DNA from: Marinitenerispora sediminis
Lineage (GTDB): Bacteria; Actinomycetota; Actinomycetes; Streptosporangiales; Streptosporangiaceae
DNA: 53,013 nucleotides
Direction: 5' to 3'
NCBI RefSeq assembly: GCF_003336425.1
Contig: NZ_QEIO01000039.1
Location: 1 to 53,013 of the forward strand
A program made the position numbers and the translations under genes. Shown piece by piece: positions 1 to 47,480 of the stretch. Positions within the stretch are counted from its first letter, which is position 1. The number at the start of each line of letters is the position of its first letter. The notes beneath the pieces were generated by a model, which saw only the letters and a program-made list of their open reading frames with translations, had not been told where the DNA came from and ran no database searches.

Positions 1-225
1 AGGGCGGCGAGCGCGCGTCGGAGCGCGACCGCAGCGCCGGTTGACCCCCGCCCTCGGCCGAGGGATCTTTCGACCGGCACCGGACATAAATGACGGGTGT
101 GCCGGGCACGGCGTTCGTGCCCGGCACACCCGTTGCGTCATGCCGCTGCCGGTCGAAAGATCCCTCGGCCGAGGGCGGGGGTCAACCGGCGCTGCGGTCG
201 CGCTCCGACGCGCGCTCGCCGCCCT
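1..225. repeat. Perfect 79-bp inverted repeat at the window edge
   Basis: Bases 1-79 are the exact reverse complement of 147-225. The arms are concentric with an inner 18-bp hairpin (93-110 with 116-133) and separated from it by 13 unmatched nt on each side. The right arm contains the last codons and stop of the anti-sigma-type gene, so the left arm would encode the same C-terminus on the plus strand. It may be a contig-end fold-back artefact or the edge of a real inverted duplication; the window cannot decide. Confidence 0.9.
93..133 (-). terminator. Hairpin downstream of the bldG operon
   Basis: A perfect 18-bp stem (93-110 with 116-133) with a 5-nt loop lies about 50 nt past the stop of the anti-sigma-type gene. 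On the minus strand the distal side runs into an A/T-rich stretch (80-92). Position and strength fit an intrinsic terminator for the bldG transcript. There is no long U tract, which is usual in high-GC actinobacteria. Confidence 0.6.
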
Positions 226-751
226 TGCCGGCGAGCGGCCAGCTCATGCGGACCACCGTGCCGTCGCCGTGCGGCTCGATGCTGACCTCGTCGGCCAGGC
301 CGACGATCACGGCCAGGCCCACGTCCGGCGAGAGCCCCGACACCCCGCCGGGAGGCGTGGGGATGCCGAGGTACGCGCTGACGCCGCCCGGTACGTAGGG
401 GTCCAGCATGGGGTCGGGCACGGACTCCTTGGCCGGCGCCCGGTCGGTGACGACGACCTCGAACCGGCCGCTGCCGCTGCCGTTGACCTGGGTCGGCACC
501 GTGCCCTCGGGCCGGTCGGCCGAGCGCGCCCGGGGCCCGGCGTCGTCGATCAGTTCGAGCTGGATCGGCTGGTCAGGGCAGTGCGCGCGGTGGGCCTCCA
601 CCGCGCGCGAGCACGCCTCACCAACGGCCAGACGAACCTCGTCGAGGGCCTGTTCCGAGATGCCCGCCCGCCGGGCCACGGCCGTGGCCATGAGCCGCGC
701 GGTGCGCACGTGCGCGGGCAGCGCGCTGATCGTCAGCTGGACGATTGCCAT
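182..751 (-). CDS. Anti-sigma-factor-type ATP-binding protein (RsbW/SpoIIAB fold)
   Basis: The 189-residue protein resembles the HATPase_c anti-sigma regulators encoded directly after bldG in streptomycetes. Such proteins bind a sigma factor or phosphorylate a STAS antagonist. Visible are an N-box helix (EVRLAVGEACSRAVEAH, about residues 38-54) and a late G-box region (SPDVGLAVIVGLADEVSI) leading into the final beta strand. The N-box has Ser-Arg where active kinases carry Asn, so ATP/Mg binding may be altered. A Gly/Ser/Pro-rich insert lies mid-protein. It starts 18 nt after the bldG stop and is presumably cotranscribed. The last 14 codons lie in the edge inverted repeat. The family call is good; the sigma-factor partner is unknown. 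Confidence 0.8.
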   Translation of the reverse strand: MAIVQLTISALPAHVRTARLMATAVARRAGISEQALDEVRLAVGEACSRAVEAHRAHCPDQPIQLELIDDAGPRARSADRPEGTVPTQVNGSGSGRFEVVVTDRAPAKESVPDPMLDPYVPGGVSAYLGIPTPPGGVSGLSPDVGLAVIVGLADEVSIEPHGDGTVVRMSWPLAGKGGERASERDRSAG

Positions 752-769
752 CGCTCGCTCGTTACGTAA

Positions 770-1117
770 CTACTTCGACTTACGCTTGTCGATGGCGTCC
801 TGCACCGACTCGTAGATCCCGAACACCTTGGTCAGGCCGGTGATCCGGAAGATCTTCAGGATCCGCTCCTGGGTGCAGACGAGGTCGAGCGTGCCGTCAT
901 GGGCGCGCACGCGCTTGAGGCCGCCGACGAGCACGCCGAGCCCCGTCGAGTCGAGGAACTCCACCTTCTCCATGTTGACGACAAGGTGGAAGTTCCCCTT
1001 GTTGACCAGGTCGATCAACAGTTCACGCAGCCGAGGCGCGGTATAGACATCGATCTCACCCTCAACGACGACGATCTCGGTGTCGTCTTCGCTGTAGTGA
1101 TCAAGCTTCAGGTCCAC
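770..1117 (-). CDS. bldG: Anti-sigma factor antagonist BldG (STAS domain)
   Basis: A 115-residue single STAS domain. It contains [13 protein letters not shown] near residues 21-33 and the conserved phosphorylation loop [20 protein letters not shown], with Ser57 as the expected phosphoacceptor. Length and sequence closely match BldG, which controls aerial development and antibiotic production in Streptomyces by partner switching with anti-sigma factors. The start is GTG at 1117 with GGAGG 4 nt upstream. The anti-sigma-type ATPase follows 18 nt downstream, and an MrfA-type helicase diverges from it, an arrangement I recall from streptomycetes. The Ser-containing loop is intact, so it should be phosphorylation-competent. 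Confidence 0.93.
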
Positions 1118-16774: not shown

Positions 16775-17227
16775 ATGTCCGAGACCCGGTCGGGTGGCCG
16801 CGAGCCGGCGGACGGCACCACCGACGATCGCTCGCTCCGCGAACTCGTCTCCGACGTCAGCGGCGACCTCTCCCAGCTCGTGCGCCTGGAGATGGAGCTC
16901 GCCCGGCTGGAGCTGGCCCAGGAGGCGCAGAAGGTCGCCAGGGGCACCGGGCTCTTCGTCGGCGCCGCGCTGCTCGGCCACCTCGTGCTCATCCTCGCCT
17001 CGGTCACCGTCGCCCTCGGCCTGTACGCGCTCGGCCTGGCGCCCTGGCTGGCCTTCCTGATCGTCACGGTCGTGTACGTGCTGCTCGCCGCCGGCCTCGT
17101 CCTGGTCGGTCAGCGCTACTTCAAGCGGCTGCAGGGCATGCCGCGCACGAACGCCACGATGACGTCCTCGATGGCCGTGCTGCGTCGGGAGCGGCCCGCC
17201 GGGTCCGCCGGCCCGGCCGAGTCCTGA
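16775..17227 (+). CDS. DUF1469 (phage-holin-superfamily 3_6) membrane protein
   Basis: 150 residues. An amphipathic N-terminal helix (SLRELVSDVSGDLSQLVRLEMELARLELAQ split over residues 18-47) is followed by two transmembrane segments (GTGLFVGAALLGHLVLILAS; WLAFLIVTVVYVLLAAGLVLV) and a basic C-terminal tail. This is the usual layout of actinobacterial DUF1469 proteins, which are chromosomal despite the holin name; their role is not established. ATG 16775 has AGGGAG upstream. It may be cotranscribed with the hydrolase 30 nt downstream. Confidence 0.82.
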   Translation: MSETRSGGREPADGTTDDRSLRELVSDVSGDLSQLVRLEMELARLELAQEAQKVARGTGLFVGAALLGHLVLILASVTVALGLYALGLAPWLAFLIVTVVYVLLAAGLVLVGQRYFKRLQGMPRTNATMTSSMAVLRRERPAGSAGPAES

Positions 17228-47292: not shown

Positions 47293-47310
47293 CGGCGGTA
47301 CCGCGGCCCG

Positions 47311-47348
47311 AACGGCCCGGTGGCGGGGTACCCCGCCACCGGGCCGTT
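47311..47348 (+). terminator. Strong terminator after hisG
   Basis: Bases 47311-47348 form a perfect 38-nt palindrome centred on GGGGTACCCC, 19 nt after the hisG stop. Confidence 0.8.
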
Positions 47349-47480
47349 CGCGTGCGGGCCGCCACGCCGGTGGGCGCGAGCCCGGGCCGCCGGTGCGTCC
47401 GGCCCGTCCCGCAGGCCGCGAGTGACGGGCCGGTCAGCGGGAGGCCGGCGAGGCCGCGAGAATCGGCCGTGTGAACCTGT

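Follow-up and report, generated by a model that had tools for sequence, protein, structure and literature searches.

The contig end and its genes

The window, 53,013 bp in length, is the entire contig C312 (1-53013) of assembly G000, a 6.01-Mb draft in 441 contigs, and base 1 is therefore a contig terminus. Near this terminus lie a bldG-like gene and its anti-sigma partner, a pair which adjoins a divergent DEAD-box helicase gene. The features of this end of the contig are as follows.

1-79, minus strand: left arm, very likely an artefactual reverse-complement copy of 147-225 (perfect complement, contig terminus, recurrence at 14 of 138 ends)
80-92, minus strand: 13-nt flank, CATTTATGTCCGG as read on the minus strand, which differs from the other flank and shows pairing in the fold centroid; probably genuine sequence just beyond the terminator
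93-133, minus strand: likely terminator hairpin of the bldG/anti-sigma operon, rho-independent type (18-bp stem and 5-nt loop; hairpins of relatives)
134-181, minus strand: genuine 3' untranslated stretch from the anti-sigma stop codon to the terminator (147-181 is the coding-free part of the right arm)
147-225, minus strand: right arm, genuine locus sequence with the last 44 nt of the anti-sigma gene
182-751, minus strand: anti-sigma factor / serine-kinase-like gene, HATPase_c_2, partner of bldG (Pfam PF13581, E 1.9e-28; orthologues in Nocardiopsaceae)
770-1117, minus strand: bldG-like anti-sigma factor antagonist, STAS domain (Pfam PF01740, E 4.4e-22)

The hairpin at 93-133 is a GC-rich stem-loop located soon after a stop codon, as in intrinsic terminators. 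A T run following the 18-bp stem was not found, the stem being followed by CATTTATGTCCGG. In high-GC actinomycetes the T runs after terminators are often weak or missing, so that a terminator is the likely reading of this hairpin, though not a strict assignment to the class. GC-rich hairpins were found at the matching place, just past the anti-sigma stop, in most of the relatives, where the terminators have hairpins of approximately 12-21 bp and carry no long flanking arms. The C312 hairpin resembles these Nocardiopsaceae bldG/anti-sigma intrinsic terminators in having a GC-rich stem shortly past the anti-sigma stop, but its 18-bp stem has its own sequence and no T run, and is bordered on one side by an apparently chimeric arm. 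It is likely an ordinary GC-rich terminator following the conserved bldG/anti-sigma pair.

Two further palindromic sequences were observed. In Actinorugispora endophytica (L044) a second long, near-perfect hairpin lies past the operon terminator, approximately 80-150 bp after the anti-sigma stop. The interior of the window contains a perfect 42-bp palindrome at 47309-47350 (20-mers around 47320-47339 match their own complements), which is possibly a strong terminator or a protein-binding site.

The inverted repeat and the downstream neighbour

Comparison of the window with itself showed that bases 1-79 and 147-225 are exact reverse complements of each other, and that these arms can be extended inward to position 143 as an 83-nt match of 99%. 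The arms have their centre in common with the hairpin, which consists of a perfect 18-bp stem (93-110/116-133) and a 5-nt loop. Between hairpin and arms are two flanks of 13 nt each (80-92 and 134-146), which share CCG near the arm and a single further base but otherwise differ. Within the right arm lie the final 44 nt, stop codon included, of the anti-sigma gene (182-751, minus strand). Read on the strand of that gene, the order is gene end, flank GCGGCATGACGCA, hairpin, flank CATTTATGTCCGG, and the copied complement of the gene end. The original prediction had described a perfect 79-bp inverted repeat ending at the window edge, a concentric 18-bp hairpin, two unlike 13-nt flanks and an anti-sigma gene end within the right arm; all of this was reproduced here, and the window edge proved to be the terminus of contig C312. 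A perfect inverted repeat of at least 30 bp within 600 bp was found in 0 of 306,616 interior tests, and a 79-base repeat is far beyond chance. Its position exactly at the contig terminus (G000:C312:1) is what would be expected of an artefact.

In five relatives (G023, Marinactinospora thermotolerans L041, Allosalinactinospora L042, Thermobifida cellulosilytica L046, and L053), a convergent gene for a trypsin-like serine protease is located past an intergenic gap after the anti-sigma gene. The orthologue in G000 is found at C20:25003-26049, with a product 87% identical to the G023 protein, and it stops after 349 of 396 residues, four bases short of the end of C20 (26053). Since this conserved downstream gene is truncated at the right end of C20, C20 is the expected neighbour of C312. 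When mapped on the five relatives, the left end of C312 (from approximately window position 216-237) and the right end of C20 are approximately 270-540 bp apart. Judging from this gene order, the C312 hairpin is most likely followed on the chromosome directly by the rest of the protease gene, namely the 3' end that C20 lacks; the assembly itself does not contain the true sequence that links the hairpin to C20.

That the neighbour lies elsewhere in the assembly, at the right end of C20 and without a second arm, also points to an artefact. When G000 was searched with the arm, the gene end and the hairpin, C312 gave the only matches. No convergent copy of the locus was found in the compared relatives, which have a single anti-sigma gene, then a terminator and a protease or other gene.

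Inverted repeats at other contig ends

A total of 138 contig ends of the G000 assembly were surveyed, a sample which left out contigs of approximately 360-435 bases that apparently read as N. An end was scored as a fold-back if, from its first base on, at least 18 bp were perfectly repeated in inverted orientation less than 600 bp inward. Such repeats were found at 14 of the 138 ends, compared with 0.015 expected from the interior rate, and those of at least 30 bp at seven ends, compared with none in the 306,616 interior tests. The left end of C312 is among the 14 by construction; with both C312 ends removed, the count is 13 of 136. A fifteenth case is the left end of C63, where an arm of about 50 bp (49) starts at base 2.

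The other fold-back ends include C67 left (79 bp), C45 right (77 bp), C19 left (77 bp), C24 left (42 bp) and C61 left (36 bp); their sequences are unrelated, and their inner loops range from 11 to 256 nt. The left ends of C66 and C49 and further ends are also terminal fold-backs, the whole range being 19-79 bp. When the left ends of C67 and C19 were compared with the complete relative G023, no alignable orthologue was found for their terminal parts. Recurrence at unrelated ends of the same assembly, with no counterpart in contig interiors, is a further mark of an artefact, and because the same pattern occurs at unrelated ends, it is a property of the DNA preparation or the assembly and not of the bldG locus.

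Origin of the left arm

We consider it highly likely that the left arm arose as a fold-back (snap-back) chimera, a sequencing or assembly artefact formed at a strong terminator hairpin, and that the inverted repeat is very probably present in the sequence file but not in the organism. Bases 1-79 can accordingly be expected, with high confidence, to be missing from the chromosome. The original prediction had left two possibilities, an artefact of the contig end and a bldG locus duplicated in inverted orientation. The first of these has gained from the recurrent terminal fold-backs, an arm shorter than k, and the neighbour on C20; the second has lost ground, no second copy having been found in the assembly or the relatives and the arm measuring 79 rather than 99 bp.

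The significance of these two lengths comes from the assembly itself. Seven ends have exactly 99 bp in common with another contig end or a contig interior, and such exact overlaps suggest a de Bruijn assembly with k of approximately 99. If the 3' part of the bldG/anti-sigma locus were truly duplicated in inverted orientation, with both copies converging on a common terminator, assembler collapse could have reduced it to one arm. De Bruijn assembly would indeed merge exact copies, so that the missing second copy alone does not exclude a duplication. A collapsed repeat longer than k should, however, leave an arm of 99 bp, as at the seven other ends, and not one of 79. The single anti-sigma gene of the relatives, followed by a terminator and then a convergent protease or other gene, the protease orthologue at the end of C20, and the identical pattern at contig ends with unrelated sequences also argue against a duplication, which we regard as very unlikely. 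Equally slim is the chance that a convergent duplicate of the bldG/anti-sigma end, with one terminator, has been inserted between the anti-sigma and protease genes.

Less probable again is that the assembly broke at a short genuine inverted repeat with arms of approximately 79 bp around the terminator, such as an extended terminator or a large cruciform. Its arms would be concentric with a real terminator hairpin, as observed, but a true 79-bp repeat is shorter than k = 99 and should not stop the assembly, the hairpins of approximately 12-21 bp in the relatives have no long flanking arms, and descent is unlikely to yield perfect arms, with coding sequence in them, around flanks that have diverged. 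A linear replicon with a covalently closed hairpin telomere, if sequenced through that end, would also put an inverted repeat at a contig end, but the probability of such a telomere is negligible given that at least 14 sampled contig ends have such repeats with unrelated sequences and that the locus lies within a conserved gene order that carries on in C20. Hairpin telomere, cruciform and locus duplication were each rejected on the evidence listed against them.

A fold-back chimera at this locus could have formed during library preparation or amplification from a single strand ending just past the terminator, with a 3' tail of ...CATTTATGTCCGG. The strand would fold on the 18-bp terminator stem and bring its 13-nt 3' tail to face the upstream flank, likewise of 13 nt. 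Pairing could then occur between CCG in the tail and CGG in that flank, giving three matches and then a G:G mismatch, a microhomology that may have served for priming, and a polymerase extending from CCG would produce a reversed copy of the 3' UTR and gene end that lie upstream. A 3' tail that folds along its own terminator stem and primes itself would account for both the concentric geometry and the equality of the flank lengths. In the DNA-fold centroid of the tail-bearing strand, part of the tail is paired with the upstream flank, while the minimum-energy structure leaves the tail free. Counting against a fold-back, the last base of the tail forms the G:G mismatch at the junction, a poor substrate for polymerase extension, and the sequence missing between the hairpin and C20 leaves a small chance of an insertion there. 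Real coverage was apparently lost just beyond the hairpin, so the assembler would have retained the chimeric extension and ended the contig with it. A 79-bp arm at a dead end is consistent with chimeric reads running out.

Inverted-repeat chimeric reads are known to arise in NGS library preparation, as described by the PDSM model (PMC10908179). The C312 arm is similar to those reads in that a strand is joined to its own inverted complement, the join lying beside an inverted repeat of natural origin and containing a mismatch; the PDSM chimeras are low-frequency soft-clipped human reads, whereas C312 is a bacterial contig with the arm at its assembled terminus. A perfect inverted repeat that terminates a draft contig can mimic a duplication, a telomere or a giant hairpin and should be treated with caution. 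Roughly one in ten of the sampled G000 ends has a fold-back, whose chimeric bases need to be trimmed prior to annotation or scaffolding.

Two other observations were made on contig ends in this assembly. Terminal overlaps of 65-86 bp between contigs (C48 right/C64, C4 left/C65, C33 left/C57 and C52 right/C73) are shorter than k = 99 and are likely joins missed by the assembler. The ends of the 17,200-bp contig C23 (L082), 1-99 and 17102-17200, are identical direct repeats of exactly 99 bp, so that this contig is probably a closed circle of approximately 17.1 kb, and probably represents a small plasmid or phage-like replicon.
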